Assembly (NCBI GenBank): GCA_020051695.1
Contig: JAGVQM010000032.1
Span: 1 to 59,371 of the forward strand
DNA from: Candidatus Zixiibacteriota bacterium
GTDB lineage: Bacteria > Zixibacteria > MSB-5A5 > WJJR01 > JAJRUJ01
Reading direction: 5' to 3'
DNA: 59,371 nucleotides
This document shows, piece by piece, positions 5,611 to 59,371 of the stretch; positions within the stretch are counted from its first letter, which is position 1, and each line of letters begins with the position of its first letter. The translations under genes and the position numbers were made by a program. The notes under the pieces are model-generated. The model had not been told where the DNA came from and searched no databases. It was given only the letters and a program-made list of their open reading frames with translations.

Positions 5611-6232
5611 GCTCGGCCTCCTGCTTGTTGTTGGTCGCCAATATACAAATGCCCGCTGCCCGCTGCCGCTGGATTACCTCGTGAAAAATTGCCGCGCCGG
5701 AATCATCGAAATTCGCGGTCGGTTCATCAAGCAGCAACAACGGCGGGGCTTTGACCAGCACGGCGGCGTATTTCAACCGTTGTTTCATCCCCGAGGAAAA
5801 AGTGCTCAACAGGTCATGTTCCCGCCCGGCCAGTCCCACGTCGCCCAACAATGAGCGCAACTGGCCGCCGGTTTTGCCCCAGCCGCCGACGTCGTTCAAA
5901 AAGCGGATATTTTCCAGCGCGGTCAACTCGTCATATAACGCCAGATCAGGGGCCACCAGCCCGACGAGGGCATGCCAGTGGTTGCGCGGTACGGTTGTGC
6001 CATGGAAGTGATAGGTTATCGTACCGCGGTCGGGACGCAACAGCCCGCAGAGGATTTTCAGGAATGTCGTCTTCCCCGAACCGTTGGGGCCGACCACGGC
6101 CAGGCGGTCTCCCCGGCGCAGTACAAAAGAAATATCCGTACAAATCCGCCGCCGGCCGAAGGCCTTGGACACTCCTGATGCCGTCACGACAAAACCAATC
6201 CCGGAGGCGGTTGTGGAATCAGGTCCGGTCAT
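5579..6232 (-). CDS. ccmA: Haem exporter ATPase CcmA
   Basis: ABC-type ATPase of 217 residues. Walker A is GPNGSGKTT (48-56), the signature loop FSSGMKQR (145-152) and Walker B LLLLDEPT (165-172). It is first in the minus-strand order ccmA-B-C-D-E, which identifies it as CcmA rather than a general ABC ATPase. Energy from ATP drives release of holo-CcmE for haem delivery. The 112 bp to the divergent glycosyltransferase gene at 6345 must hold the ccm promoter. Confidence 0.92.
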   Translation of the reverse strand: MTGPDSTTASGIGFVVTASGVSKAFGRRRICTDISFVLRRGDRLAVVGPNGSGKTTFLKILCGLLRPDRGTITYHFHGTTVPRNHWHALVGLVAPDLALYDELTALENIRFLNDVGGWGKTGGQLRSLLGDVGLAGREHDLLSTFSSGMKQRLKYAAVLVKAPPLLLLDEPTANFDDSGAAIFHEVIQRQRAAGICILATNNKQEAELAERHIVMGE

Positions 6233-6344
6233 GATATGGAGTATAATATGGGCCGCCGGGAAGTGGTACGAGAAATGCTGGGAGCGGGAAGGTGCTGGTG
6301 CTTCTTGACTTGTCTTCCGTCTCCTCGGGACGTACCATATTTTT

Positions 6345-7985
6345 ATGAAAGCCGAAGGCCCGGTGAAAACAACACTGCGGACCAGATCTATTCTGGGCGT
6401 GATTGTCGCGGCGGCGGCAGTCGTTCGTTTCTGGGGTTTTCCTGGCTATTTTCCGCAATTCTGGGATGAGGCGAAATATATCTGTGAAGTCGAGAAGCTC
6501 ATTCCATACTTCAGCGTCAATGCCGGTGCATTTGCATTCCTTAAACTCGGGTATCAAGTGTTCGGACTACCGTCGTACGCGCCGATTGTCTGCGGGATTT
6601 TCGGGGTGTTGACTGTTGGGGGCTGCTATTTCGTGGGCACGCGGGTGTTCCCGGGCCAACGGCGTGGCGTTCACCTGGGATTGTTGATGGCGGCATTGGC
6701 CGCACTCATGCCATATCTGGTCCGCTATTCACACCACGCATTTCCGGAGGTCTTCGCTCTTTGTTTTTTTGTCTGGGCCCTGGTGTTTTATCTGGCGCGG
6801 CTGAACACCACCCCGCGGGCGGCAGTCGGAGCCCGACAGCAACGCCGGTGGAACAGTCTTGTTTCCGTTGCGCTGCTGGCCCTCGTGCCGGCCTGCTCGT
6901 TTAAATTTCTACTCCCCACCTTCATCTTATTTCTTACCCTGGAATTCTATCTTTGGCGGTTGCGCCGTCGTCATCTTTTCAAGAATGGACCGGCACGGGA
7001 TTTCGTCATCATGCTGGTTGCGGGGACTGCGTTTTTTGTCGTTATCCCGTTCATCCTGGCCCTGACCGCGGGATATGACGGTTGGTTCGAGCGGGCGCGG
7101 CTGCTTTCGGAAGCCCACTCTTCGATCGGGACCATGCGTCTGGCCGCCCATGTATTATATCCCATCCACCTGTTTCATTTTTGCGGAATTATTTTCACCG
7201 CATGCGCGCTGGCCGGGATCTGGATCATGTTTGCCGAACCACCGGGCCGCCGGGCAGCGCGGGTCACGACCCCAGCAGCCACGATCCTCTTCCTGCCGTT
7301 TGCGGTTTACCTGTTGTTTTTCGGTTTTCTGTCCCATCTGCAGGCGGCACGCGTGTACGTGTTGACTGTACCATTTTTGATTTTCACGGCGGCGGTCTTT
7401 TTACTTTGGCTCCGTGATGTGCGTCCGCGCATCGGCATCATGGCCATGAGCGCCGTATTGCTGCTCACTCTCTTTTCGTTTGTGAATATTTGCCGGGACC
7501 ACCTGAGTAAAACGACCGGCTTTGCCGAGGCGTGCCATGTCATTGCCCGACAAATACAGCAAGGACAGATTGTATATGCCGGTACGATGGCCCAGGTACT
7601 TTATGGTGTCTATCGTTCGCCCTACTGTCAGGCAACATACTTTCGCGCGGAACCGCCATCGCGATTGGGTAAAATTCCAACGGACCCGAGCAAGCCGCCA
7701 ATCGTGGTCATCGAGGATGGCGCCGATGCGGACTTCTGGTTGGCTGATCGTGACAAGTACGATCGTCCGGCAGACATGATGGAAATCCGCCTCATGCTGG
7801 CTGATTATCACCGGTTTGCCTCGGCGGGTGAACTAATTTTCGCCACGGAAGAGCATTTTACAAATTCGCCCAATTATTATCTGGAGGACATATATTCCTG
7901 GCAGTCTTTTCACGATCTGCAGACATTGCTGGCAAATTCGCGCGATTCGATATTTATCTATCAGCTTCAACCACCGGCGGAGTAG
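6345..7985 (+). CDS. ArnT/PMT-like glycosyltransferase (GT39-like), paralogue 1
   Basis: Inner-membrane protein of 546 residues with about eleven membrane helices and a soluble C-terminal domain of about 150 residues. The first periplasmic loop has FPQFWDEAKY, the Asp-Glu catalytic pattern of GT39/GT83 enzymes that transfer sugars from polyprenyl phosphate carriers. It is clearly paralogous to the product of 8761-10440: both have RLWG/RFWG-PxYFPQFWDEA near the N-terminus, ACSxKFLLPT in the middle, LFFGFxSHLQxARxYVLTxPF, and a C-terminal SPxYYLEDxYSxQS box. The acceptor is unknown. No strong ribosome binding site precedes the ATG at 6345. Confidence 0.78.
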   Translation: MKAEGPVKTTLRTRSILGVIVAAAAVVRFWGFPGYFPQFWDEAKYICEVEKLIPYFSVNAGAFAFLKLGYQVFGLPSYAPIVCGIFGVLTVGGCYFVGTRVFPGQRRGVHLGLLMAALAALMPYLVRYSHHAFPEVFALCFFVWALVFYLARLNTTPRAAVGARQQRRWNSLVSVALLALVPACSFKFLLPTFILFLTLEFYLWRLRRRHLFKNGPARDFVIMLVAGTAFFVVIPFILALTAGYDGWFERARLLSEAHSSIGTMRLAAHVLYPIHLFHFCGIIFTACALAGIWIMFAEPPGRRAARVTTPAATILFLPFAVYLLFFGFLSHLQAARVYVLTVPFLIFTAAVFLLWLRDVRPRIGIMAMSAVLLLTLFSFVNICRDHLSKTTGFAEACHVIARQIQQGQIVYAGTMAQVLYGVYRSPYCQATYFRAEPPSRLGKIPTDPSKPPIVVIEDGADADFWLADRDKYDRPADMMEIRLMLADYHRFASAGELIFATEEHFTNSPNYYLEDIYSWQSFHDLQTLLANSRDSIFIYQLQPPAE

Positions 7986-42961: not shown

Positions 42962-44038
42962 ATGTTAGCACAGCAAAAAGGTCTCACCGCATTTTGGGGC
43001 TGCTGCGCCGCCGCGTTGTTGCTGGCCGCCGTCAGCCTGACCGCTGCCGTGGCGGAGGTCGAGCGGGAAAACACGACGACCACCACGCACATCGATTCGG
43101 GCCACCGTCAATCCGATACGCCTGGTCATGTCGAAAACGATCATTCGGCAAACGACATCCTTGATGAAAATGAGGAAGATGATGACCATGACGGACATGA
43201 AGACGAAGGTATCATCGAGATTACCCCGGCGGCCGTCGAGATGGCCGGCATCACGCTGGCCACAGCAGACCGGGGACGAATCAGCCAGGCCATCAACCTG
43301 CCGGGTGAAGTCGGGTTCGACGAAGACCGGCTGGTCCACATCACGCCCCGCTTCGGCGGGATTGCCCGAGAGACCCGGTTCCGTGTTGGTGATTATGTCA
43401 ATGCCGGTGACACCGTCGCAATTGTCGAAAGTAACGAGAGTTTGAATACCTATGCCATTACCGCGCTCATCTCCGGCCGGATCATTGATCGTCATGTCAC
43501 CCTTGGTGAATTCATTTCCGAGGAACACTGCATCTACACCATCGCCGATCTGTCTGACGTCTGGGTAAACCTTGCCGTGTATCCGCGTGATGCCGACCGT
43601 GTGAAACCCGGGCAACAGGTCGTCATCAGGGCGATCGGGTCGGAACACACGGCGGAAGGGATGATCCAGTACGTGACCCCGATCCTGAACGTTACGACGC
43701 GAAGCATCACCGCCCGCGTGGTGCTGCCCAATCCCGACGACACCTGGCGTCCCGGCACTTTCGTCCAGGCCCGGGTGACCACCGGGTCGGGAGAGGAAGG
43801 ACTGCTCGTCGATAACCACGCCATCCAGATGCTGGACGATGAGAACATCGTCTTTGTCTCTGACGGGCCGGGGCGCTATCGGCCGGTCGCAGTAACCGTC
43901 GGGGAACGTGATGACCGTTTCACTGAAATCCTGTCCGGGCTGGAGGAGGGGACAAAACATGTCGTCTCCGGGGCCTTTGAGCTGAAAGCTAAAATTGTCA
44001 CCAGTTCCCTGGGTGGTCACGCCGGGCACGGCCACTAA
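42962..44038 (+). CDS. Metal efflux adaptor protein (CzcB/CusB-like)
   Basis: 358-residue periplasmic membrane-fusion protein. After the N-terminal anchor comes a His/Asp/Glu-rich segment (HRQSDTPGHVENDHSAND to EDDDHDGHEDEG) and the C-terminus ends GGHAGHGH; both are probable metal-binding ends. The core has the short-hairpin CzcB fold: AGITLATADRGRISQAINLPGEV and YVNAGDTVAIVESNE, then ALISGRIIDRHVTLGEF. It bridges pump and channel and may deliver metal. AAGGA precedes the ATG. Confidence 0.9.
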   Translation: MLAQQKGLTAFWGCCAAALLLAAVSLTAAVAEVERENTTTTTHIDSGHRQSDTPGHVENDHSANDILDENEEDDDHDGHEDEGIIEITPAAVEMAGITLATADRGRISQAINLPGEVGFDEDRLVHITPRFGGIARETRFRVGDYVNAGDTVAIVESNESLNTYAITALISGRIIDRHVTLGEFISEEHCIYTIADLSDVWVNLAVYPRDADRVKPGQQVVIRAIGSEHTAEGMIQYVTPILNVTTRSITARVVLPNPDDTWRPGTFVQARVTTGSGEEGLLVDNHAIQMLDDENIVFVSDGPGRYRPVAVTVGERDDRFTEILSGLEEGTKHVVSGAFELKAKIVTSSLGGHAGHGH

Positions 44039-44051
44039 AAGGAGACGATAC

Positions 44052-47000
44052 ATGAATCGATTCATCCACTATGCGATACAAAACAGATTGCTGGTTGTCG
44101 TCGTCCTAATCGGCGTGATCGCGGCGGGGATCGTGCAGTACCGAAATCTCCCCACTGATGCGTTTCCCGATATTTCACCGGTGATGGTGCCGGTTTTCGC
44201 CGAAGCCCACGGCATGGCGCCGGAGGAGATCGAACGTCTGATCACCTTCCCCATCGAATCGGCGATGAACGGCCTGCCCGGCGTAAAATCGATCAAATCG
44301 ACATCGGCCTTCGGCATGGCCGTGGTCTACGTGTATTTCGCCGACGATGTTGATATTTATTTTGCCCGACAGATCGTCGCCGAGCGACTGACCTCTGCGG
44401 CTGCTGAGCTGCCGGAATTGCACGAACAACCCGGACTCGGACCGATCTCTACCGGACTGGGCGAAGTGTTGATGTACTACCTGCAGGCCGACAGTACGGT
44501 TAACACCGGAGGCAAACCGCTCGACACCTATCTCCGCGAGATCAACGACTGGGTTATCAAATACCAGCTACAGACTGTACCCGGCGTCACTGAAATCCTC
44601 TCGATGGGTGGCCACGTTCTGCAATATCAGCTCAAACTTGATCCATACGCCTTGAATACCTTCGGGTTGACCCTCGAGGATGTGGTAAACGCGGTTGCGG
44701 ACAATAACCGAAACGCCGGCGGGCAGTTTCTGATCCTGGGGTCGGAAGAATACCTGGTCCGTGGCGTCGGATTGCTCGAAACATTGGCCGACGTGCGGAA
44801 CCTGCAGTTGAAAGTCGTCAACGGCACACCGGTATGTGTCGGTGATGTGGCCGAAGTCGACTTTGGCCGGGAAATTCGCCGCGGAGTGGTCACGCGTAAC
44901 GGCGCCGAGGAAGTTGTCGCCGGTATCGTGATGAAACTCTACGGCGAGAATACCTCGGAGGTCATCAGCCGCCTGGAAGCCAAATTCCCGGAAGTCCAGG
45001 CCTCGCTGCCGTCCGGCGTGCACCTAGTACCCTATTACAACCAGAGTGCGCTGGTTGAAAACGCGGTCGAGACGGTGAGCGACGCGCTCTGGCAGGGTGC
45101 CATCCTGGTCATCCTGGTGCTGGTGCTTTTTCTGGGCAATGTTCGCAGTGCCTTCATCGTTAGTCTTGCTCTTCCGGTATGCGCACTGGTGGCAGTTATT
45201 TGTATGGGCGTTGCCGGGATGTCCGCCAATCTTATGTCATTGGGCGGGATTGCCATCGCCATCGGCATGCTTAGTGACGCATCCATTGTCGTCGTCGAAA
45301 ACATCCACAGGCATTTGGTGGACGTCAAATACAAAAACAGCAGCAAAACGGAAATAATCGTCATGGCCTGCCGCGAAGTCGTGCGTCCCCTCACCTTTTC
45401 GGTTATTATAATCGTCATTGTGTTTCTGCCGCTTTTTACCCTGGAGGGCGTCGAGGGGAAGATGTTCTCGCCGATGGCCTTCACCATCACCTTTGCCCTA
45501 CTGGGTTCGCTGTTGGCTGCGCTGGTGTTCTCGCCGGTTCTATCGTCGTTTCTCCTGAAAAAGGAGGAGCGTGAGAAATTTACCTTTATCGACACATTGA
45601 AACGGTTCTACCAGATCCTTCTGCGATGGGTTTTTCGTCACCGGATTGTCGTACTGATCATCACGCTGATCGCGTTCGCCGGTTCTTTGGCGGTTGTTCC
45701 CTTTCTTGGAACGGAATTCATCCCCACACTTGAAGAAGGTGTCATTCAAGTCAATGTCACCATGGCCCCCTCGATCTCGCTCGAGAAAGCGACCGAAACA
45801 ATCATGAAACTCGAGCGGATCATCAAAGAATTCGGCGAGGTCGACCAGACCATCGCCAAGATCGGCCGCCCCGAGGCGGGTAGCCATCCACATCCGGTCA
45901 ACTCGGCGCATATCCAACTGCTGCTCCGGCCGCCGGAGGAGTGGCCGAACTCCGGTTCCAAAGCGGAACTCGTCGAGGCGTTGAACGAAAAATTGTCGCA
46001 GTACCCCGGAGTGCAGCTTAATTTTTCCCAGCCGATTCAGAATATGTTTGATGAGTTGCTTTCGGGCGTAAAAACACAATTGGCGATCAAGTTATACGGG
46101 GATGATCTGACCGTCCTCCGCACAAAATCCGAGGAGATCAAAGAGGCGATCGAAACCGTGCCGGGGCTGGTCGATTTGTCATCCGAACAAAGCTACGGGC
46201 AACCGCAGGTGCAGATCAAGGTCGACCGGGACGCCTGCGCTCGGTATGGGGTGAATGTCTCCGATATTCTGGAGCTTGTGGAATTGGCGATCGGTGGCGA
46301 GGTCATCGATCAGATCTTCCTTAACACACGGCGGTTCGGGATCCACGTGCGTTTCCATGAACAATACCGCAATGACCCTGAGGCAATCAAGAACCTTCTG
46401 GTCCATACCTCGAGCGGCATGTTGCTGCCGTTGTCACAAGTGGCGCGGGTCGAGACTCTGGTCGGTCCCATTCAAATCAATCGGGAAAAAAACCAGCGCC
46501 GCTGGGTTATCTCCGCCAATGTCCGCGGCCGGGACATGGGCGGGGTAGTCGGTGATATTCAACGAATCGTCAAAAACGACGTTAAACTTCCCCCCGGTTA
46601 CTATCTCGAATACGGCGGCCAGTTTGAAAATCAGCAACGGGCAATGAAGAGACTGGGGATCATTGTTCCGGCAACCCTGGGTTTGATTTTCCTGCTGCTG
46701 TACTTGTCGCTTAATTCACTGCGTTACGCCTCACTCATTTTCATCAACGTCCCTCTGGCCTTGATCGGAGGAATATTCGGCCTGTTTGTAAGCCGGGAGT
46801 ACCTGTCCGTTCCGGCTTCCGTGGGGTTTATCGCCCTCTTCGGCATTGCGGTGTTGAATGGACTCGTCCTGGTGTCCTACATTAATCAATTGCGCAGGGA
46901 TGGCATGGCTGCTACCGAAGCGGTTACCCAGGCTTGTCTGTTGCGGCTCCGACCGGTGTTGCTGACCGCGCTTGCCACTATTCTGGGATTGGTGCCGTTA

Positions 47001-47153
47001 ATGCTGTCCCGAGGTATGGGCTCGGAAGTCCAACGCCCACTGGCTGTCGTCGTGGTTTTTGGCCTGCTGTCGTCGACTTTTCTTACGCTGGTACTGATTC
47101 CAGCGTTGTACGAGTGGTTTGCGCCGGGCGACAAAGCCATGTGCAGGGAATAG
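44052..47153 (+). CDS. Heavy-metal efflux RND pump (CusA/CzcA-like)
   Basis: 1033-residue HME-RND pump starting MNRFIHYAIQNRLLVVVVLIG. The first loop has AFPDISPVMVPVFAEAHGMAPEEIERLITFPIE, typical of the HME branch. TM4 reads GGIAIAIGMLSDASIVVVENIHRH, which resembles CusA (GGIAIAIGAMVDAA) more than CzcA, hinting at Cu/Ag, but the specificity cannot be fixed without checking the Met pairs. AAGGAG is 7 bp before ATG 44052; the upstream frame is shadow of the adaptor gene. Confidence 0.9.
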   Translation: MNRFIHYAIQNRLLVVVVLIGVIAAGIVQYRNLPTDAFPDISPVMVPVFAEAHGMAPEEIERLITFPIESAMNGLPGVKSIKSTSAFGMAVVYVYFADDVDIYFARQIVAERLTSAAAELPELHEQPGLGPISTGLGEVLMYYLQADSTVNTGGKPLDTYLREINDWVIKYQLQTVPGVTEILSMGGHVLQYQLKLDPYALNTFGLTLEDVVNAVADNNRNAGGQFLILGSEEYLVRGVGLLETLADVRNLQLKVVNGTPVCVGDVAEVDFGREIRRGVVTRNGAEEVVAGIVMKLYGENTSEVISRLEAKFPEVQASLPSGVHLVPYYNQSALVENAVETVSDALWQGAILVILVLVLFLGNVRSAFIVSLALPVCALVAVICMGVAGMSANLMSLGGIAIAIGMLSDASIVVVENIHRHLVDVKYKNSSKTEIIVMACREVVRPLTFSVIIIVIVFLPLFTLEGVEGKMFSPMAFTITFALLGSLLAALVFSPVLSSFLLKKEEREKFTFIDTLKRFYQILLRWVFRHRIVVLIITLIAFAGSLAVVPFLGTEFIPTLEEGVIQVNVTMAPSISLEKATETIMKLERIIKEFGEVDQTIAKIGRPEAGSHPHPVNSAHIQLLLRPPEEWPNSGSKAELVEALNEKLSQYPGVQLNFSQPIQNMFDELLSGVKTQLAIKLYGDDLTVLRTKSEEIKEAIETVPGLVDLSSEQSYGQPQVQIKVDRDACARYGVNVSDILELVELAIGGEVIDQIFLNTRRFGIHVRFHEQYRNDPEAIKNLLVHTSSGMLLPLSQVARVETLVGPIQINREKNQRRWVISANVRGRDMGGVVGDIQRIVKNDVKLPPGYYLEYGGQFENQQRAMKRLGIIVPATLGLIFLLLYLSLNSLRYASLIFINVPLALIGGIFGLFVSREYLSVPASVGFIALFGIAVLNGLVLVSYINQLRRDGMAATEAVTQACLLRLRPVLLTALATILGLVPLMLSRGMGSEVQRPLAVVVVFGLLSSTFLTLVLIPALYEWFAPGDKAMCRE

Positions 47154-50957: not shown

Positions 50958-51953
50958 TTATTTGGTCATGGCCAGCGCCGACAAGCGGTCGATTGCCGGA
51001 TAATAAGTCGAATCGGCGGCGAGGGCCTTTTGATATTCTTCGCGCGCCTCGGCATATTTACGTTCGTCCTCATACAACACCCCGCGTGAATAGGCCAGCG
51101 CGGCCTGCGTCGATTCGGAAACATTGCCGTGCAACACCTTTTTCTCTTCCTCAGATACCGCAACTTTCAGCCACCCGGCGACCGTCTCGGCGGTTTGGGC
51201 CACCATGCTCATCAACTCTTTTGTTTTGCCTTTGATCGTGGTGCTTTCGAGTATTTCACCGGTCTCGGTTTTGACCAGTTTGGGGACAATCCACATTTCG
51301 TCTTTGCTCACCTGCATGAACGAACCCATCACAAACGCATGCACCCCGAGTAGCTTGCCCACGCGCACGGCGGTTTGATCATCGAAGTACTCGCTTTGCT
51401 GGACCTGGATTTCATCCAGCAGCATTTGCACGCGCTCGCGGTCGACGACTTTGAGCTTGCTGAGGTTTTTTAAATCGGAGATCAGGATATCGGCCATGCC
51501 GAATTGCATGGGGTTCCACTGGTCGTGATCGACCGTCGAATTGTTGCGAAAGTCGACTACGGCGACATGTTTGATGCCCGGGTCCTCTTTCACGCACAGG
51601 GAATCTTTGGCGACGGAATACCACAGTTCCATGAATCGGCGGTGGTATTTCTGGGAGTTGATATCGAGGCAGGGATAATTCTCCCGCAGGCGGCCCAGCC
51701 ACATCGCCGCCTCAGTCTGGTTTTCGCGGGCATAAAAGCAGCGGGCCAGCAGCAGGTACGCCCGCTGCGCCTGGGCCGGATCGAGCTCCTCGGCCTCGAT
51801 GGTACTGATCAGCAATTCAATGGCTGAAACGAAATCGGCTTCATTATAGAGTTTTTGGGCCTGGTCCAGACTTTCGCCAACACCGGCCGACAACATTGTC
51901 GCCGAGGCCGACAGTAATCCGACGATCACCAGCGACAAGATTACCTTGCGCAT
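50958..51953 (-). CDS. Exported CsgG/FlgO-like protein with TPR motifs
   Basis: 331 residues with a signal peptide (MRKVILSLVIVGLLSASATMLSA). Residues 25-110 are TPR-like helices (AQKLYNEADFVSAIELLI). A CsgG/FlgO-type domain follows: HVAVVDFRNNSTVDHDQWNPMQFGMADILISDLKNLSKLKVVDRERVQMLLDEIQVQQ, then LLGVHAFVMGSF. A last TPR (SRGVLYEDERKYAEAREEYQKAL) ends the protein. It probably assembles at or near the outer membrane. No curli or flagellar genes are nearby; the neighbouring cluster is T6SS. GGAGGG precedes the ATG. Confidence 0.83.
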   Translation of the reverse strand: MRKVILSLVIVGLLSASATMLSAGVGESLDQAQKLYNEADFVSAIELLISTIEAEELDPAQAQRAYLLLARCFYARENQTEAAMWLGRLRENYPCLDINSQKYHRRFMELWYSVAKDSLCVKEDPGIKHVAVVDFRNNSTVDHDQWNPMQFGMADILISDLKNLSKLKVVDRERVQMLLDEIQVQQSEYFDDQTAVRVGKLLGVHAFVMGSFMQVSKDEMWIVPKLVKTETGEILESTTIKGKTKELMSMVAQTAETVAGWLKVAVSEEEKKVLHGNVSESTQAALAYSRGVLYEDERKYAEAREEYQKALAADSTYYPAIDRLSALAMTK

Positions 51954-52160: not shown

Positions 52161-54365
52161 ATGGCAGCAGCGAGTGAAACACAATCACCGTCAGCCACGC
52201 CTTCCACGATGGTGTTCGGTATGACCGCGGGCGCCGGACGCCTGCAACTGCTTCCACGAGAGGAAATCACCACCGCTCCACCCCCGAAAACCGATCATCC
52301 CTTCATAATCCTCGATGATGCGGGGATTTTTTCGCGGGTCCTGGCTGCGCGAGCATTGACTGACGCCGGGAAATTGATTTCCGTCGCGGTTAAGCAACAA
52401 AAAGATACAATTGCCGCGCCCCCGCCGGGGTTCGGCCGCAGTTATACCAACGCCGACTCGCGCGCGGCTTTTCTGGCCGAGGCCGAATGTCTGGAAAAGC
52501 TCGGTGAAACGGGAGAAGGGATTGTCCTGCCCCCGGCCGGGATGGCCTACCAATCGCAGGCGCCCGGGAAATATCTGATTGCTTCGTTGCCGATAACATT
52601 TTGCCGGAAAATTTCCACATTTTTTCACCCGCCCTGCCCCCTGTGCGGGGCCTTGCTGCAGGATTGCCGCGATGAATTGCTGCTGGGGGAGCAGGGTCTG
52701 CCGCTGTATGCCTCCAGCGCGCAGCGGTTATTGTATTGCGCGAAGTGTGGCGGGGTACAGGACGGTTTGCGGACTTTTTATGCCGCTGCTGCCGGGCCGG
52801 CGTTGCGTTCACGGGCGGAGCAGCGGCTGCGGCTGGGCCCGCAACTCTATCGCGATTTCCAGCACCTGGTCAATAAAGCCCCCACTGATCGGGAGACGGG
52901 AGTAAGCGACGCCCCGGGTATCGCGCAGTTTCCCTGCATGAATTGTGTTCATCGCCCGGCCTGCTATCCCCGGCGGTCGGATGAAACCCAGCCGATCCCC
53001 GCCGAACAACAGTTGTACCCGGTGGCATATCATGAATTCCTGGCCCTCGTCCGCGAATACTGCGAGATGGATTTCGGACAACTGTATCGTTATCTGGGTG
53101 GGCAGGAGCGCTCGCGGGTGATGGCTCGTCCGGCCCGGACCGGCGACAAATATGCCGGTACACGGGAACATCCGGACGGCTGGTATTTTTTCGGCAACGC
53201 TCCGCACGAACGCTCCGCGCTGGAAATTCTCTGGCTTAAGCTGGCGGCGTTCGAACAACTTTGTGAGGGAGTGTGGCGGGTTTATGAGTCCTGCGGCCGG
53301 CCACACCTTGATTTGCATCCTCAAAGTGTACTGGCCGTGCCGGGCAGGTCCTCACGGTGGTCGTTTCGTGTCGGGCTGGCCAATCCTGCGGCCGCTGTTC
53401 CGGCACGCACCGGTCCGGAGACCGATGAAAAATATCGGCAGTTTCTCCCTCGGGCGAATTTCCAACACCTGTTTACTTCGCCGCTGATTCGCCGTCCACC
53501 GTACGGCCACGATGAATACGCCAATCTGACCATTCGGCGGATCGAGTCGCAGGGCGCCGGCGTGATCCTCGACGTTCATCTGGCCTCGGAGGTGATCCGT
53601 GTTTTTCAATTGACGACTGATGATTTGTTGCGGATCACGTTGAATGCCCCATTGGATAAGGCCGACGGTCTGGTTGTATGGGCTGTGGAAGCCAAACCCG
53701 AACGCGGCGGCTATCGGCTGCGCGGGGAGGCATCTCGACTGCGGCCCGATGTACTTCAGGCATTGGCGGCGCACCAAGAGCATACACTCTGGGATTGCCG
53801 CGTGAATATTTGCCGCAACTATAACGTGCGTTGTGACTTGTATAGTCTGGGGATGATGTTATGGGCCCTGTTGCTGGTCAACGATCGGCAGGATGAGGCC
53901 GAAGTTTGCCGAAAAGTGGAGGAAATCCGAACCGAACTCACCGACGGGGCTGGTGCAACCGACCAAGCCACTCCCTCAGCCGTAGCGAAAACACGTTTTA
54001 ATGCGATTTTGGCCGAAAATCAGGCCGTTTTTGGTCCGGAGTCGGTGTTTTTCCGTGGGGAAGATCGCCAAAGCGGCAAGCACGATATTCCGGCGGAATT
54101 ATGGCTTGCTTGTCAAAAATTGGGGCTTGAGCTCATTGCCGATGCCCCGGATTATTCGGCGGCCGGGAACGCAAAAAATGGTGGTGCACAAGCGATAAAA
54201 AAAGTCCTTGACCGATTAAAAGACTTGAATTTATGGGCTGGAGGCCGATTATTTGCAAGGGGCGCATTCGAACGCGAAGTATTGGCGGCGATGGCCCGGG
54301 ATAGACAGGACGTTGCCGGCGGTGTGTCAAAAAATACATCGTCGAGGAGAGAATTGGAGTCTTGA
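52161..54365 (+). CDS. Divergent protein-kinase-like protein with zinc-ribbon insert (T6SS locus)
   Basis: 734 residues, no membrane segment. I read a split kinase fold: VAVKQQ with K78 (beta-3 lysine), FLAEAECLEKL with E107/E109 (helix C), then an insert of about 220 residues. The insert has three Cys clusters: C159/C162 (CPLC), C193/C196 (CAKC) and C259/C262/C268 (CMNC...C). The C-lobe follows with HLDLHPQSVL (382-391, in place of HRDLKPxN), RVG at 403-405 where DFG is expected, and RCDLYSLGMMLWALL (557-571), the DxWSxG-like helix F start. Loss of the DFG Asp suggests a pseudokinase. PpkA-type kinases control T6SS firing elsewhere, so a regulatory role is likely. It is translationally coupled to the next gene (TTGA overlap). 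Confidence 0.6.
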   Translation: MAAASETQSPSATPSTMVFGMTAGAGRLQLLPREEITTAPPPKTDHPFIILDDAGIFSRVLAARALTDAGKLISVAVKQQKDTIAAPPPGFGRSYTNADSRAAFLAEAECLEKLGETGEGIVLPPAGMAYQSQAPGKYLIASLPITFCRKISTFFHPPCPLCGALLQDCRDELLLGEQGLPLYASSAQRLLYCAKCGGVQDGLRTFYAAAAGPALRSRAEQRLRLGPQLYRDFQHLVNKAPTDRETGVSDAPGIAQFPCMNCVHRPACYPRRSDETQPIPAEQQLYPVAYHEFLALVREYCEMDFGQLYRYLGGQERSRVMARPARTGDKYAGTREHPDGWYFFGNAPHERSALEILWLKLAAFEQLCEGVWRVYESCGRPHLDLHPQSVLAVPGRSSRWSFRVGLANPAAAVPARTGPETDEKYRQFLPRANFQHLFTSPLIRRPPYGHDEYANLTIRRIESQGAGVILDVHLASEVIRVFQLTTDDLLRITLNAPLDKADGLVVWAVEAKPERGGYRLRGEASRLRPDVLQALAAHQEHTLWDCRVNICRNYNVRCDLYSLGMMLWALLLVNDRQDEAEVCRKVEEIRTELTDGAGATDQATPSAVAKTRFNAILAENQAVFGPESVFFRGEDRQSGKHDIPAELWLACQKLGLELIADAPDYSAAGNAKNGGAQAIKKVLDRLKDLNLWAGGRLFARGAFEREVLAAMARDRQDVAGGVSKNTSSRRELES

Positions 54366-55369
54366 CCAACCAGCAGGGACAAAGCCCGCAAGCTGATCCG
54401 CCGGTGGTTCATTCGCCGGATGAATTTCTCGCGCGGCTGGAACAGGCATTTTTCGCCAACGCCGACCGGCCGGCAACCACGCGCCGAGCGGCGCTGGCCG
54501 GAGTTATCTCTAATCTGACAGCCGAGTTAAACCCGGAAGAGGCCGGAGTTTTAATCGAGACCGTTAGACAGCGTCTGGCCCGGCCAACCGTGGCCGCGCC
54601 TGCTGAAAACGCGGCGCCTCCCGAAGAATTGGAACGACTCAACGCCGAAAAGCAGGCGCTCGAATCCCGGATTGCCGAGCTGGAGACCGCCACGGCGATC
54701 CAGACTGCGGCATACGATTCCCTGGTCGAATTATCCGCCCATTTCCTGGGCAGCGACACGAAATTCGATAAACCGGAACAAATCGACGTGTTTTGCAATC
54801 GGATCAAAGATTCTTTTCACATCCTGTTGTCCGCGTTTAAAAGCCTGCTGCGGGGGCGCAAGCGGTTCCAGATGGAATATGCGATTTATTTCGGCTGGGA
54901 CAAATCAATGGACGGCACCCGCGTGATCCGGGCGGGAGAAGATGCCGATGTGGGGCGCAAATTTTTCGAATGGCGTACGGTCGATACGGCCGAGGCCTCT
55001 TCCGCCGAAATCGCGCGGGCACTGGATGAACTGAAGTATCACGAACTGGCGCTGTTGTCGGGATATAAAAAATGCGTCAAAGAGGGCACGCTCAATGTTC
55101 TTCAGCCGCTGTCCCCCGAGCAGTTGCGGCAGGACCTGGCTCAGGAAAACGTGTCGTGGGGACCGCTGAAGATCCCGTTTCGGCTGGCGCCGTTCAAGAA
55201 CGCTGTGCTGTACCGTGAATTCTGCCGCCGCTACCGGGAATTAACCGCCGAGGACGAGCGCTTTTTTGAAGACAAATTCCGGAATACTTTCCGGAACGCA
55301 TATAAAGAAGTGATGAACCTCAAAATTCGGGCGCAGCAAAAGGAAAAAAACGAGTCACGTGAGGAATAA
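54362..55369 (+). CDS. T6SS TagH/VasC-like protein lacking the FHA domain
   Basis: 335 residues. A coiled coil lies at about 87-115 (ELERLNAEKQALESRIAELE). The C-terminal half resembles the conserved C-terminal domain of T6SS FHA proteins (TagH/VasC): ARALDELKYHELALLSGYKKCVKEG, LSPEQL, then YREFCRRYRELTAEDERFFEDKFRNTFRNAYKEVM. The N-terminal FHA phosphopeptide-binding domain is missing. TTG start overlapping the previous stop. It may work with the kinase-like protein encoded just upstream. Confidence 0.6.
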   Translation: MTNQQGQSPQADPPVVHSPDEFLARLEQAFFANADRPATTRRAALAGVISNLTAELNPEEAGVLIETVRQRLARPTVAAPAENAAPPEELERLNAEKQALESRIAELETATAIQTAAYDSLVELSAHFLGSDTKFDKPEQIDVFCNRIKDSFHILLSAFKSLLRGRKRFQMEYAIYFGWDKSMDGTRVIRAGEDADVGRKFFEWRTVDTAEASSAEIARALDELKYHELALLSGYKKCVKEGTLNVLQPLSPEQLRQDLAQENVSWGPLKIPFRLAPFKNAVLYREFCRRYRELTAEDERFFEDKFRNTFRNAYKEVMNLKIRAQQKEKNESREE

Positions 55370-55396: not shown

Positions 55397-55918
55397 ATGA
55401 ATAAAATTCTCAATCGCGCGGGACGAGTAGTACTGTTGTTTGCTGTTGTGCTGTTGGTGTTGGCCGGGTGTTCGTTATTTCGCGGGGGCGAGCCCAAGGA
55501 ACGCACCATCCAGTTAACCTTTGATCCATCTCCGCAATTGAACTGGGACGGCAGTGAGTCGAAGACCCTGCAGGTTGCCGTCTTTATCCTGAAAGATACC
55601 GGCCGCTTTGCCGGCGGGCAGGTCGCCGCGTTTTTTGATCCCGATTATGACCGCGATTACTCCGAGCGGTTTGCCGCGGATGTCGTGAAAAGCTGGACGT
55701 TCACTGTCCGGCCCGGCCAGAGCGAGACACAAATCCTGAGCTATACCCTGGGGCAGGCCGAAGCGGAACGTCTGTATCTGGGCATCATCGGTGACTTTTT
55801 CCAGCCGGCGGACAACGGGCGGGAACGGTCATTCTATACGCTGAAAAACACGTCCCAGCAGCAGATCACCGCGGTGTTCGGCAAAGACCTGATTGAGTCG
55901 GTGGCGGGCAATCGGTAA
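55397..55918 (+). CDS. tssJ: T6SS outer-membrane lipoprotein TssJ
   Basis: 173-residue lipoprotein with lipobox VLAGC (Cys25). The mature part is beta-rich and follows the TssJ pattern: IQLTFDPSPQLNWDGSESKTLQVAVFILKD, then AAFFDPDYDRDYSERFAADVV, and a C-terminal TAVFGKDLIE strand. TssJ anchors the T6SS membrane complex (with TssL and TssM) at the outer membrane. Position before tssK-tssL-tssM is the standard order. Confidence 0.87.
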   Translation: MNKILNRAGRVVLLFAVVLLVLAGCSLFRGGEPKERTIQLTFDPSPQLNWDGSESKTLQVAVFILKDTGRFAGGQVAAFFDPDYDRDYSERFAADVVKSWTFTVRPGQSETQILSYTLGQAEAERLYLGIIGDFFQPADNGRERSFYTLKNTSQQQITAVFGKDLIESVAGNR

Positions 55919-56023
55919 TGACGGGAACAAGTTGACGCGCACCGGATGAAACAAAACTGAAGTGTGGGAACGCCCGGCCCGGCCGCGCCGCCCACCGGAT
56001 CGACCGACGGAGAAAAATCAAAG

Positions 56024-57379
56024 ATGGCCCAATATTATCAAGTCCTGTGGAGCGAGGGGTTGTTCATCACCCAGCACCATTTCCAGCAGCGCGACCGGTA
56101 TGTTGACAAAGACGTGGCCTTCCGTGTCCACTCGGCGGCGCCGTTTTCGTATGGTGTTTCGCACCTGAGCATTGACGCCGATGCGATCGCCAACAAGATG
56201 TTTACGCTGCAGGAATTCGACGGGACACTTCCGGACGGCACAACGGTCCGTATTCCCAAGGTCGACGAGCCGCCGCCGACCCGTTCGCTGGAAGCGGCCT
56301 TCGCGCCCACCGAATCGGTGCTGGGGGTGTATCTGGGGCTGCCGGTAGAACGGCCGGGCTTGCCGGCGGTGCGCATGGGTGGTGAAGGCCGGGCCGTGCA
56401 GACCCGTTTTGTCCGCGAATTCGCCACGATTCCCGATATGATCAACGGCGAAGGCGAACGGGAAATCGCTTATGCCCGCAAAGAACTCTGTCTGCTTTTT
56501 TCCACGGATAACCTTAACGAATACGATTGCCTGAAAATCGCTGAAGTGGTGCGCAACGCTGAGGGGATCATGGAACTAAAACGGACATTCGTCCCTACGG
56601 CCACAGCAATCGGGGCATCGCCATACCTGAAAAACTGGGTCAAGGGGCTGCTGGAGGTCTGTTCGGCCAAGAGTGACGCCCTGGCCGAAAAAGTCCGCCA
56701 GCGTACGCCGCAGATGGCCGATTTCACCGGTTCGGACATGCCGAATTTCCTGCTGTTGCACACCATTAACAGCGCCATCCCCACGCTGGCCCATTTCTAT
56801 CGGCATCCCCAGTCTCATCCGGCCGCGGTCTTCGGGGCCATGGCCTGGCTGGCCGGCGCGTTATGCACATTCTCGAATGAAGCCCGGGCGCATGACTTGC
56901 CGGTGTACAACCATGACAACCTTGGGGGGTGCTTCACCGAACTGGAACGGCGGCTCCGCGTGCTGCTGGAGATGGTCGTCCAGGCCCGGTATGTGAAAAT
57001 CCCGCTGACGCAGAAGCAGCCGACCTTGTATGAGGGCACGATCGCCAACCCGGAATTGCTGGAACACGGGGAGTTTTATCTGGGGCTCTCCGCCGACGTC
57101 GCGGAGAACAAACTGATCACGGAATTTCCGCTGCATGGAAAAATCATTTCGCCGGACAAAATCGAGTTGTTGATGCAGAAAAACCTGCCGGGGGTCGGTG
57201 TCGTGTATGTTGCGCACCCGCCGGCGGCGTTGCCGGTGAAGGCGGGGATGGTGTATTTCCATCTGGAAAACAGGGGTGACCGCTGGAATTTCATCTGTCA
57301 GGCCAATGCGATATCGATCTACGGACCGCCGGCGAATTTCCCCGGTCTGGCGGTCGAATTGCTGGTTATTGAGGGCTGA
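56024..57379 (+). CDS. tssK: T6SS baseplate protein TssK
   Basis: 451-residue cytoplasmic baseplate subunit. It begins MAQYYQVLWSEGLFITQHHF, followed by QQRDRYVDKDVAF; VLWxEGLFxxPQHFQ is the family hallmark. The middle has AEVVRNAEGIMELKRTFVPTA and the C-terminal receptor-binding part VYVAHPPAALPVKAGMVYFHLENRGDRW. TssK links the baseplate to the TssJLM complex. ATG 56024 was taken; upstream frame has no family similarity. Confidence 0.93.
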   Translation: MAQYYQVLWSEGLFITQHHFQQRDRYVDKDVAFRVHSAAPFSYGVSHLSIDADAIANKMFTLQEFDGTLPDGTTVRIPKVDEPPPTRSLEAAFAPTESVLGVYLGLPVERPGLPAVRMGGEGRAVQTRFVREFATIPDMINGEGEREIAYARKELCLLFSTDNLNEYDCLKIAEVVRNAEGIMELKRTFVPTATAIGASPYLKNWVKGLLEVCSAKSDALAEKVRQRTPQMADFTGSDMPNFLLLHTINSAIPTLAHFYRHPQSHPAAVFGAMAWLAGALCTFSNEARAHDLPVYNHDNLGGCFTELERRLRVLLEMVVQARYVKIPLTQKQPTLYEGTIANPELLEHGEFYLGLSADVAENKLITEFPLHGKIISPDKIELLMQKNLPGVGVVYVAHPPAALPVKAGMVYFHLENRGDRWNFICQANAISIYGPPANFPGLAVELLVIEG

Positions 57380-57419
57380 TCACGAGGAATTATCACGCAC
57401 GCCCACATGGGAGAAGCAC

Positions 57420-58094
57420 GTGGCTGATCATCAGACCCCGACAAAACGTGACTCGCTGAGCAGCGCATGTTCGCGCGCGTTCTCGGTGATTCTGGCGCTC
57501 GGCGGCGGGCAGGACCTGGGTGCAGTGCAGTCGGTACGCGCGCGCCTGAGCTCCACACTGGGGAGTATCGAGGCGGCGGGTCCCGGCGACGGTTATACTG
57601 CCGAGGACCTGCGGACGGCGCGCTATGCGCTGACTGCCTTTGCCGACGAGACAATTGCGCGTACCAGTTGGCCGGGGCGCGCCGAATGGATGCAAAGTCC
57701 GCTGTCGTTGACGGAATTCAACGACAACAACGCGGGTGACGGTTTTTTTGCACAACTAACGACGATCCGCCGGCAGGCCGAGGCCAAACCGGAATTGCTG
57801 GAAGTATATTACACCTGCCTGGCACTGGGTTTTGAGGGCAAATATGCGCTGGCTGATCCGCGCGAACGCCTGGCGCTGATCAAAGAAATCGGCCGCGACC
57901 TGGAACACCTCCGGCCCGGCGCCGCGGAGTTGTCACCACGCTGGCAGCCACCGGAAAAACTCAACGAGATGGTCGGGGGCGGGCTGCCGCTGGGGGTCAT
58001 CACGGCGATTGCCGCAGGACTGGCGTGTATTGCGTTCATCGCGTTGAATTTTTTATTGAATGGGGAAGCCAATCGGTTGATCTCGCAGTTCTAA
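57420..58094 (+). CDS. tssL: T6SS membrane-complex protein TssL (DotU type)
   Basis: 224-residue inner-membrane protein: a cytoplasmic helical domain (residues 1-185, with TAFADETIARTSWPGRAEW, then FFAQLTTIRRQAE and YYTCLALGFEGKY) and one C-terminal helix (VITAIAAGLACIAFIALNFLL). No peptidoglycan-binding OmpA domain is attached, so another protein may supply it. GTG 57420 was chosen, with GGGAG before it. Confidence 0.9.
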   Translation: MADHQTPTKRDSLSSACSRAFSVILALGGGQDLGAVQSVRARLSSTLGSIEAAGPGDGYTAEDLRTARYALTAFADETIARTSWPGRAEWMQSPLSLTEFNDNNAGDGFFAQLTTIRRQAEAKPELLEVYYTCLALGFEGKYALADPRERLALIKEIGRDLEHLRPGAAELSPRWQPPEKLNEMVGGGLPLGVITAIAAGLACIAFIALNFLLNGEANRLISQF

Positions 58095-58113: not shown

Positions 58114-59371
58114 ATGACCACACTTGTATTGAAATTGCTGAAATCAAAATTCGCCGCGGCCGGCGCGGTGTTGATTATTGCCCTGATTATTGTGTTGATG
58201 GGCCCGCGGATCGGCCTGGTCTCCCCCTACAATTATCTGGCGGCCGGTTTGGTCCTGCTGGTCTGGCTGGTCTGGCTGGGTTACCAGAAAATGCAGGCGC
58301 GGAAAAACGCCTCGGCGCTGGAGGGTTTTTTACACCAGCAGGCCGACAATCAGCTGCTGAGCGCCCGGCCCGATGTCAAAGATGAAATCGCGGCGCTGAA
58401 AGAAAAGCTGGAACGCGCGGTCCGCACGCTCAAACAATCGAAACTGGCCAAAGGCCGCCGCGGCTCGGAGGCCCTGTATGTCTTGCCGTGGTTCATGATT
58501 ATCGGGCCGTCCGCCTGCGGCAAGTCCACCGCCATCCGTGAATCGGGCCTGAGTTTTCCGCCGGTGGACCCCGATGCCGAGCATCCGGGGGCGATCAAAG
58601 GTCTGGGCGGCACGCGCAATTGTGACTGGTGGTTTACCAACGAGGGGATCATCCTCGATACCGCCGGGCGGTATACGATCCCGGTCGATGCCGCCGAGGA
58701 CCGGGAAGAGTGGACGTCGTTTCTGGCGCTTTTGAAAAAGTTCCGCAAGAAAAGTCCGATCAACGGGCTGCTGGTGATGGTGTCGATTGATGAGCTGTTG
58801 CAGCAAAGCGAAGACGGCCTGGAAGCCCATGCTCGGAATATTCGTATCCGCATCGATGAACTGATCAATAAACTGGAAATCATCTTCCCGGTCTACCTGG
58901 TGTTCACCAAGTGCGACCTGGTCTCGGGTTTTGTGGAATTTTTCGGTGATTTCAAAAAGCGTGAACGGGAGCAGGTGTGGGGTTATACCTGCACCTACGA
59001 TCCCGAGCGCGCGACCCCGGCCCAGGAGGAATTCGCGCGCGAGACTACTTCCCTGCTGGCCACCCTCAAGACCCGCCGCCTCGACCGGTTACACGCGGAG
59101 ATGCGTCCCGGCAGCGAGAAAAAAGTGTATCTGTTCCCGCTGGAATTCGATGCCGCGCGGCGCAAATTGCATAATTTTGTCGAGACATTATTCCAGCCGA
59201 ACCCGTTCCAGCAGAACCCGGCCCTGCGCGGCGTGTATTTCACCAGCGGCACGCAGGAGGGCACGCCGATCGGCCAGGTGATGGAGAGTATGGCCCGGGA
59301 ATTCGAAATCCCCCGGGAAATCGCCGAGATCGTGCAGGACGTGCCGGAGAAAAAGGCTTATTTTATCAAGG
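58114..59371 (+). CDS. tssM: T6SS membrane-complex protein TssM (IcmF), 3' end outside window
   Basis: First 419 codons of TssM. Two N-terminal helices (residues 11-30 and 41-57) precede a cytoplasmic domain with an intact Walker A, GPSACGKST (131-139, K137), LDTAGRY as a Walker-B/G3-like motif and FTKCDL as a G4-like motif. About 750 further residues are expected in a usual TssM. Start is ATG 58114, 19 bp after tssL. The gene runs off the end of the window. Confidence 0.92.
   Translation, partial: MTTLVLKLLKSKFAAAGAVLIIALIIVLMGPRIGLVSPYNYLAAGLVLLVWLVWLGYQKMQARKNASALEGFLHQQADNQLLSARPDVKDEIAALKEKLERAVRTLKQSKLAKGRRGSEALYVLPWFMIIGPSACGKSTAIRESGLSFPPVDPDAEHPGAIKGLGGTRNCDWWFTNEGIILDTAGRYTIPVDAAEDREEWTSFLALLKKFRKKSPINGLLVMVSIDELLQQSEDGLEAHARNIRIRIDELINKLEIIFPVYLVFTKCDLVSGFVEFFGDFKKREREQVWGYTCTYDPERATPAQEEFARETTSLLATLKTRRLDRLHAEMRPGSEKKVYLFPLEFDAARRKLHNFVETLFQPNPFQQNPALRGVYFTSGTQEGTPIGQVMESMAREFEIPREIAEIVQDVPEKKAYFIK

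Follow-up and report, generated by a model that had tools for sequence, protein, structure and literature searches.

What might a kinase-like protein that has apparently lost its catalytic residues do in a type VI secretion system (T6SS) operon? Most of what is known about T6SS control through threonine phosphorylation comes from PpkA and Fha in Proteobacteria. In published accounts, PpkA phosphorylates Fha or TssL, and Fha binds phosphothreonine, leading to assembly (PMC3953482, PMC12607579). The DNA analyzed here, referred to as the window, is a stretch of 59,371 nucleotides (contig JAGVQM010000032.1) from a Candidatus Zixiibacteriota bacterium. A reading made from the sequence alone had proposed that one gene near its end encodes a T6SS-linked pseudokinase regulator with a zinc-ribbon insert, different from PpkA.

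The gene and its T6SS operon

The gene is a single uninterrupted open reading frame with an ATG start, and it is followed by a series of T6SS genes.

52161..54365, forward strand: T6SS accessory gene for a pseudokinase-like protein of 734 aa, a long form lacking the C-terminal tail (open reading frame and kinase comparisons)
54362..55369, forward strand: TagH-like gene, T6SS_FHA_C domain without FHA, 335 aa (PF20232, E 2e-9)
55397..55918, forward strand: tssJ (PF12790, TIGR03352)
55964..57379, forward strand: tssK (PF05936, E 3e-123)
57276..58094, forward strand: tssL (PF09850, E 1.3e-48); the first start of its reading frame overlaps tssK
58115..59371, forward strand: tssM, 5' part (profile match 2e-141 and comparison with relatives)

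The genes run from the pseudokinase-like gene through the TagH-like gene, tssJ, tssK, and tssL to tssM, inside which the contig ends; at the first junction, the start of the TagH-like gene overlaps the stop of the pseudokinase gene by 4 bases. Both the T6SS linkage and the adjoining FHA-less TagH-like protein claimed by the sequence-only reading were borne out, as TssJ, TssK, and TssL were identified by Pfam, TssM was identified through relatives, and the downstream neighbor matched PF20232 and no FHA domain in Pfam. This neighbor carries the C-terminal domain of Fha/TagH proteins (TIGR03354, PF20232) but, in contrast to those proteins, lacks the FHA domain, which is found on separate proteins in some relatives. 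The remainder of the cluster, including the continuation of tssM, is apparently found on another contig of this genome, C38. That contig starts with a TssM-like reading frame followed, as judged by eye, by further T6SS-like reading frames; it holds TssC (Pfam), and others of its reading frames resemble TagF, TssA, TssB, TssE to TssH, and VgrG by eye.

Searches of the window protein against Pfam (E ≤ 1 and E ≤ 10) and NCBIfam gave no credible match, and a phmmer search against PDB sequences gave nothing at E ≤ 1. PADLOC and PHROGs (E ≤ 0.1) returned no match for three proteins, the window protein included, and no relative of the window protein was found on viral contigs.

Upstream, a gene for a CsgG/TPR protein (50958-51953, reverse strand; PF03783, E 6e-11) is divergent from the pseudokinase gene, and a CsgG/TPR gene is also divergent beside the pseudokinase gene in a zixibacterial relative (L002:1749-2741); it is possible that this protein is a conserved partner or an envelope-linked neighbor of the pseudokinase. 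Farther upstream (42962-47153), an RND-type efflux membrane-fusion protein and transporter were recognized by eye only.

Kinase homology and the state of the catalytic residues

The kinase relationship was assessed by profile-profile alignment (hhalign) of 30 kinase domains from related genomes against five long-form members of the family described below. The alignment divides the window protein as follows.

52278..52601, forward strand: kinase N-lobe remnant, approximately residues 40-147 (N-lobe columns against kinases)
52392-52394, forward strand: codon of the beta-3 Lys78, VAVK (kinase alignment)
52479-52481, forward strand: codon of the helix-C Glu107 (kinase alignment)
52602..53207, forward strand: Cys-rich insert, residues 148-349, approximately 200 aa (30-row alignment)
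53211..53501, forward strand: first part of the kinase C-lobe, with helix E, catalytic loop, DFG equivalent, and APE-like motif (alignment)
53304-53333, forward strand: catalytic loop HLDLHPQSVL, residues 382-391 (kinase alignment)
53382-53390, forward strand: DFG-equivalent NPA, Asn408-Pro409-Ala410 (kinase alignment)
53475-53483, forward strand: APE-like TSP (kinase alignment)
53502..53801, forward strand: second insert, residues 448-547, approximately 100 aa, predicted to be beta-rich (alignment and DSSP of the model)
53802..54308, forward strand: second part of the kinase C-lobe, from helix F (kinase alignment)
53835-53852, forward strand: DLYSLG, residues 559-564 (kinase register)

With the inserts removed at borders chosen by eye, the core aligned with the 30 kinases over 182 columns at a probability of 98.1% and a score of 101.5, against scores of 23.4 or less for 59 column shuffles, 16.0 for the reversed profile, and 23.4 or less for nine decoys (eight T6SS, FHA, and PP2C families plus PilZ). 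With the inserts left in, the match fell to 49% and the catalytic loop alone was aligned. Each lobe aligned with kinases when taken separately (N-lobe columns, 91.8%, score of 45.8; both parts of the C-lobe, 96.6%, score of 72.1), as did the two zixibacterial members without the others (96.1%, score of 68.7). The short forms that occur in Desulfobacterota relatives showed no similarity signal to kinases when compared alone (0.39%), and the kinase ancestry of these forms therefore rests on their homology to the long forms.

Searches of known structures pointed in the same direction with less force. A two-sequence profile gave four matches to PDB sequences at E ≤ 10, all of them protein kinases (E 0.44 to 0.87) and all located at the DLYSLG helix. 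The full-length AlphaFold (AF2) model, built from 11 sequences, was weak (mean pLDDT of 51.5, pTM of 0.45). Foldseek placed no kinase among the 50 matches listed for it and nothing at E ≤ 0.001; its matches (E 8e-3 or worse) were for the most part helicase and flavoreductase barrels and were set aside. A second look at this low-confidence model with VIA-align gave, among the 50 matches listed, kinases throughout (FERONIA, IRAK4, LIMK1, RIPK2, and others), with Z scores of 12.0 to 13.1 over 163 to 188 residues at 3.1 to 4.2 Å. Because Foldseek itself listed no kinase, the VIA-align result taken alone is moderate evidence for a kinase fold.

The comparisons favor the kinase assignment of the sequence-only reading: the profile alignment is significant once the inserts are removed, well above its controls, and the VIA-align structure comparison, from a weak model, gave kinases and not the non-kinase fold that would have refuted the reading. 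The two lobes, the beta-3 Lys, the helix-C Glu, the catalytic loop, and the helix F motif are all recognizable, and we regard the homology of the window protein to protein kinases, as judged from these alignments, as significant.

The state of the active site is another matter. VAVK (Lys78), the helix-C Glu107, HLDLHPQSVL, and DLYSLG were correctly picked out from the sequence and fall in kinase register. The loss of DFG was also correctly called, but its position was misplaced: the triplet that aligns with DFG is Asn408-Pro409-Ala410, with Asn408 in place of the Asp, and the RVG proposed earlier (residues 403-405) lies in the preceding strand. Set against an active Ser/Thr kinase of the PpkA type, the window protein keeps Lys78, Glu107, and the HLD Asp384 but has Ser389 for the catalytic Asn and Asn408-Pro-Ala for DFG. 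The catalytic Asn and the DFG Asp are replaced in both zixibacterial members, which have Asp384 and Asn408 in common; in the second of these, Lys78 is kept by pairwise alignment and is displaced by one column in the alignment of 30 rows. Of the five long forms, three have the HRD Asp and one (L100) has the catalytic Asn, whereas DFG occurs in none of them; L101 does not keep the Lys and the helix-C Glu, and L100 and L102 have Asn at the position of Asp384. Nothing of the catalytic loop or of the activation segment remains in the short forms. The Pfam kinase models (PF00069 and PF07714) gave no match at E ≤ 1 for the window protein and none for L100, L101, L102, or L051. With these residues replaced in the long forms and the catalytic segments absent from the Desulfobacterota relatives, the family can do without catalysis, and the window protein is very probably a pseudokinase, as the sequence-only reading had proposed in setting it apart from PpkA.

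The window protein shares with PpkA/Stk1 its kinase fold and its position in a T6SS cluster, but it differs in lacking DFG and the catalytic Asn, in carrying two large inserts, and in giving no Pfam Pkinase match. It resembles pseudokinases generally in retaining a kinase fold with lost catalytic residues; it is set apart from them by the Cys-rich domain between the lobes and the beta insert in the activation segment, and we know of no pseudokinase with this combination.

The first insert was described from the sequence as a zinc ribbon of about 220 residues between the lobes. A Cys-rich insert is indeed found there; it is smaller (approximately 200 residues), and the predicted structure of the insert gave no PDB match that would identify it as a zinc ribbon. 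Eight of its cysteines (148, 159, 162, 193, 196, 259, 262, and 268) are invariant in all 30 rows of the family alignment, in which L045/L046/L048/L049, L085/L087, and L093/L094 are near copies and not independent. Glu355, just past the insert, is likewise present in 30 of 30 rows, and a ninth cysteine, C169, in 28. This conservation far exceeds that of any kinase motif in the family; it was partly selected for in L044 to L053, which came from a genome scan with two Cys- or N-lobe-type peptides; a search with the entire profile supplied the remaining rows. An AF2 model of residues 140-350 alone had a mean pLDDT of 66, with values of approximately 80 to 90 around the first Cys clusters. The cysteine pattern is most naturally read as two Cys4 metal sites.

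The second insert, which the sequence-only reading did not mention, lies between the APE-like TSP motif and DLYSLG and is present in four of the five long-form members, being absent in L100. A resemblance to PilZ suggested by eye was not borne out by comparison with the PilZ profile and its RxxxR and [D/N]xSxxG motifs, as the hhalign match (1.4%, score of 15.6 against a shuffle maximum of 15.0) was out of register.

A family of T6SS loci and its C-terminal motif tail

The window protein is the founding member of an undescribed T6SS protein family. A survey of the literature on T6SS pseudokinases, FHA and PpkA, zinc ribbon kinases, Desulfobacterota, and Zixibacteria, which took in few of the subscription papers, found no description of it. 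The scan of the genome collection found 10 loci, consisting of a zixibacterial relative (706 aa, 42% identity, all eight cysteines kept) and nine loci from organisms assigned to Deltaproteobacteria or to groups of Desulfobacterota. A profile search of a 395-genome Desulfobacterota-like sample then placed the family in 27 genomes, 26 of which are among the 44 that encode TssK (Fisher P = 8e-28); a search around the phylum of another member covered largely the same sample and gave the same total. The gene lies immediately upstream of a gene with the TagH C-terminal domain (TagH-C) in 30 of 31 loci, and the sole exception is cut by a contig end, its other half also having TagH-C next. In uncut loci, the next genes after TagH-C are those for TssJ and TssK. 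The family is thus encoded in T6SS clusters and co-occurs with T6SS core genes. The 30-row alignment comprises the 31 profile hits without L103 (tail only) and an L044 fragment, plus a joined protein from G124.

The survey of T6SS loci in the window's own phylum that the sequence-only reading had suggested gave a sparser picture. The gene is present in 2 of 132 genomes, and most of the TssK-bearing Zixibacteria lack it: TssK was found in 31 of the 132, in 12 of these at E below 1e-30, and 2 of these 12 carry the gene. A tree of 38 TssK proteins puts the T6SS of the window among those of other Zixibacteria, which are without the gene, and far from the gene-bearing Desulfobacterota group. It follows that other Zixibacteria lost the gene or that it moved separately from the rest of the T6SS.

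Most members of the family carry a C-terminal tail with repeated copies of a threonine motif whose best form is LEETVILSP. One to nine copies occur in 27 of 30 rows, for a total of 116 against 3.1 expected and a maximum of 10 in 200 shuffles. For a stricter form of the motif, defined after inspection of the 116 instances, the density per 1,000 aa is 17.0 for tails; the bodies give 0.06, and six other T6SS families give 0 to 0.18. Of the 116 motifs, 94 have a hydrophobic residue at position -3 and 114 have L, I, V, or M at position +3, positions +1 to +3 being partly imposed by the search pattern. The three rows with no tail motif are the window protein, its one zixibacterial relative, and L099. 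At the other extreme, five genomes (G184, G250, G279, G354, and G376) encode tail-only proteins of 128 to 164 aa with three motifs each, and at L103 the tail-only gene lies upstream of TagH-C within the T6SS cluster. The tail-only loci are L075/L103 (G184), L076 (G354), L078 (G279), L079 (G376), and L080 (G250). Two further loci, L097 (8684-10222) and L098 (8388-10037, reverse strand), keep the Cys region and the tail and have lost most of the kinase C-lobe.

The tail motif has the pattern of a known FHA ligand. A bacterial FHA domain was crystallized with the ligand LEKpTSIV (PMC6733907), and the phosphopeptide tail of Bdellovibrio DgcB and the tails of the relatives share a hydrophobic residue at -3, Glu at -2, and hydrophobic residues at +2 and +3 around the Thr. 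The arrangement differs from that of DgcB: the motif is on a different protein, with one to nine copies per row in 27 of the 30, and the window protein has none. A literature search for the motif ETVIL together with FHA found nothing. The match suggests that the relatives' tails could serve as FHA phosphopeptide ligands. In contrast to Fha/TagH proteins, then, it is the pseudokinase tail of the relatives that bears the FHA-type phospho-motifs.

Genes for the other parts of such a switch occur near some loci. Around the 31 loci, many with short flanks and partly checked with Pfam, Ser/Thr kinase genes are present at at least 6, FHA genes at at least 4, and PP2C genes at at least 3; unlike the situation with PpkA/Stk1, the active-type kinases are encoded separately, near 6 of the 31. 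Profile searches of the last 14 kb of the window (45 to 59 kb) found no Ser/Thr kinase, FHA, or PP2C gene, and the first 20 kb of C38 (read by motif for kinases and by eye for the others) likewise showed no gene for a kinase, a phosphatase, or an FHA protein. The FHA matches of the window genome lie on other contigs (C24, C25, and C41). A two-FHA protein is also encoded at locus L051 (8932-9900). Both zixibacterial genomes have a gene for a two-FHA protein close to a Ser/Thr kinase gene (C24 at approximately 15.1 to 15.8 kb, L176:10083-10811, reverse strand, in the window genome; C40, L177, in G124), and these proteins are weakly similar (2e-10 to 1e-13) to two-FHA proteins at Desulfobacterota T6SS loci; the zixibacterial protein could be a distant reader. 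At locus L101, an FHA-GAF-histidine-kinase protein (5687-7420, reverse strand) is encoded beside a PP2C gene and divergently from the long-form pseudokinase; here, within a T6SS locus, the FHA domain is part of a sensor kinase.

A possible scaffold and its alternatives

We propose, with about an even chance of being right, that the window protein is a catalytically dead kinase acting with TagH-C as a cytoplasmic T6SS scaffold, and that the tails of its relatives add phospho-control. The putative metal-binding insert with its eight invariant cysteines would hold the two kinase lobes apart, and the scaffold would act with the FHA-less TagH-C encoded directly downstream, which would be the link to the machine and which the scaffold would help to bring in or retain the baseplate and membrane complex (TssK, TssL, and TssM). 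In most relatives, the flexible C-terminal array of threonine motifs would be phosphorylated by a true Ser/Thr kinase and the phosphorylated motifs bound by separate FHA proteins, so that phosphorylation would control assembly. The data show the open reading frame, its kinase relationship and lost catalytic residues, the invariant cysteines, the gene order and T6SS co-occurrence, and the tail arrays that relatives have and the window protein lacks; metal binding (read from the cysteines), the partnership with TagH-C, tail phosphorylation, FHA binding, and the scaffold role are inferred, and regulation of the T6SS by this pseudokinase family is suggested by gene order and co-occurrence. Several observations count against the proposal: the weak full-length model with no kinase among its listed Foldseek matches, the fall of the kinase match when the inserts are left in, the missing kinase signal of the short forms taken alone, the small number of loci with kinase, FHA, or PP2C genes nearby (many flanks being short), and the lack of the gene in T6SS clusters of related Zixibacteria.

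Several other roles for the protein were weighed. The retention of Lys78, Glu107, and Asp384 in the window protein, with Asn408 at the place of the DFG Asp and with Asp384 and Asn408 present in both zixibacterial members, might mean that the zixibacterial form binds ATP or has a weak, noncanonical kinase activity on a T6SS protein without DFG. Such residual activity seems quite improbable given that the catalytic Asn and the DFG Asp are replaced in these same two proteins, that L101 lacks the Lys and the helix-C Glu, that Asn takes the place of Asp384 in L100 and L102, and that the short forms have no catalytic loop. It is also conceivable, though on balance unlikely, that the protein works through its insert, which would sense metal or redox state (zinc or Fe-S) and gate the T6SS, the kinase body being an inert carrier. 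The cysteines do persist in every row while the kinase motifs decay, and L097 and L098 retain the Cys region and the tail after losing most of the C-lobe; yet five genomes have the tail alone without any Cys region, and two Cys4 sites would serve equally well as structural zinc.

The patchy occurrence of the gene, in 26 of the 44 TssK-bearing genomes and in 2 of the 12 strong-TssK genomes of the window's phylum, is what might be expected of an effector-specific adaptor or a secreted T6SS cargo. That the protein is one of these, and not a core accessory protein, is very unlikely, as the adjoining TagH-C and the TssJ and TssK genes next to it in uncut loci indicate that the gene belongs to the structural operon. 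The degenerate catalytic residues could also be those of a decaying gene without function, a reading that is barely credible for an intact 734-aa reading frame with a 706-aa relative at 42% identity that keeps all eight cysteines, and with conserved place and spacing.

The TagH-C scaffold remains our preferred reading. With no tail on the protein and no kinase, phosphatase, or FHA gene in the cluster as read, the scaffold in the window lineage is probably not under phospho-control. The window protein would be a platform without an array, and its function would therefore lie in the body, most likely as the TagH-C scaffold. For the family as a whole, a broader proposal can be made more tentatively, as somewhat less than an even bet: that the T6SS phospho-switch has been rewired, with the tasks of PpkA and Fha split differently. 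A dead kinase with a double-Cys4 module would carry the phosphothreonine docking array, the FHA domain would sit on a separate reader, and TagH-C would go without FHA; parts would then have been shed to give the tail-only form, the form without the C-lobe, and the tail-less, phosphorylation-independent form of the window.

The family adds an unannotated accessory protein to 26 of the 44 TssK-bearing genomes of the 395-genome sample and offers a test case for a kinase fold turning into a scaffold, in which naturally occurring losses (of all but the tail, of the C-lobe, or of the tail) separate the body from the phospho-array. Through that array, the relatives of the window protein probably wire the T6SS injection machine to protein phosphorylation.
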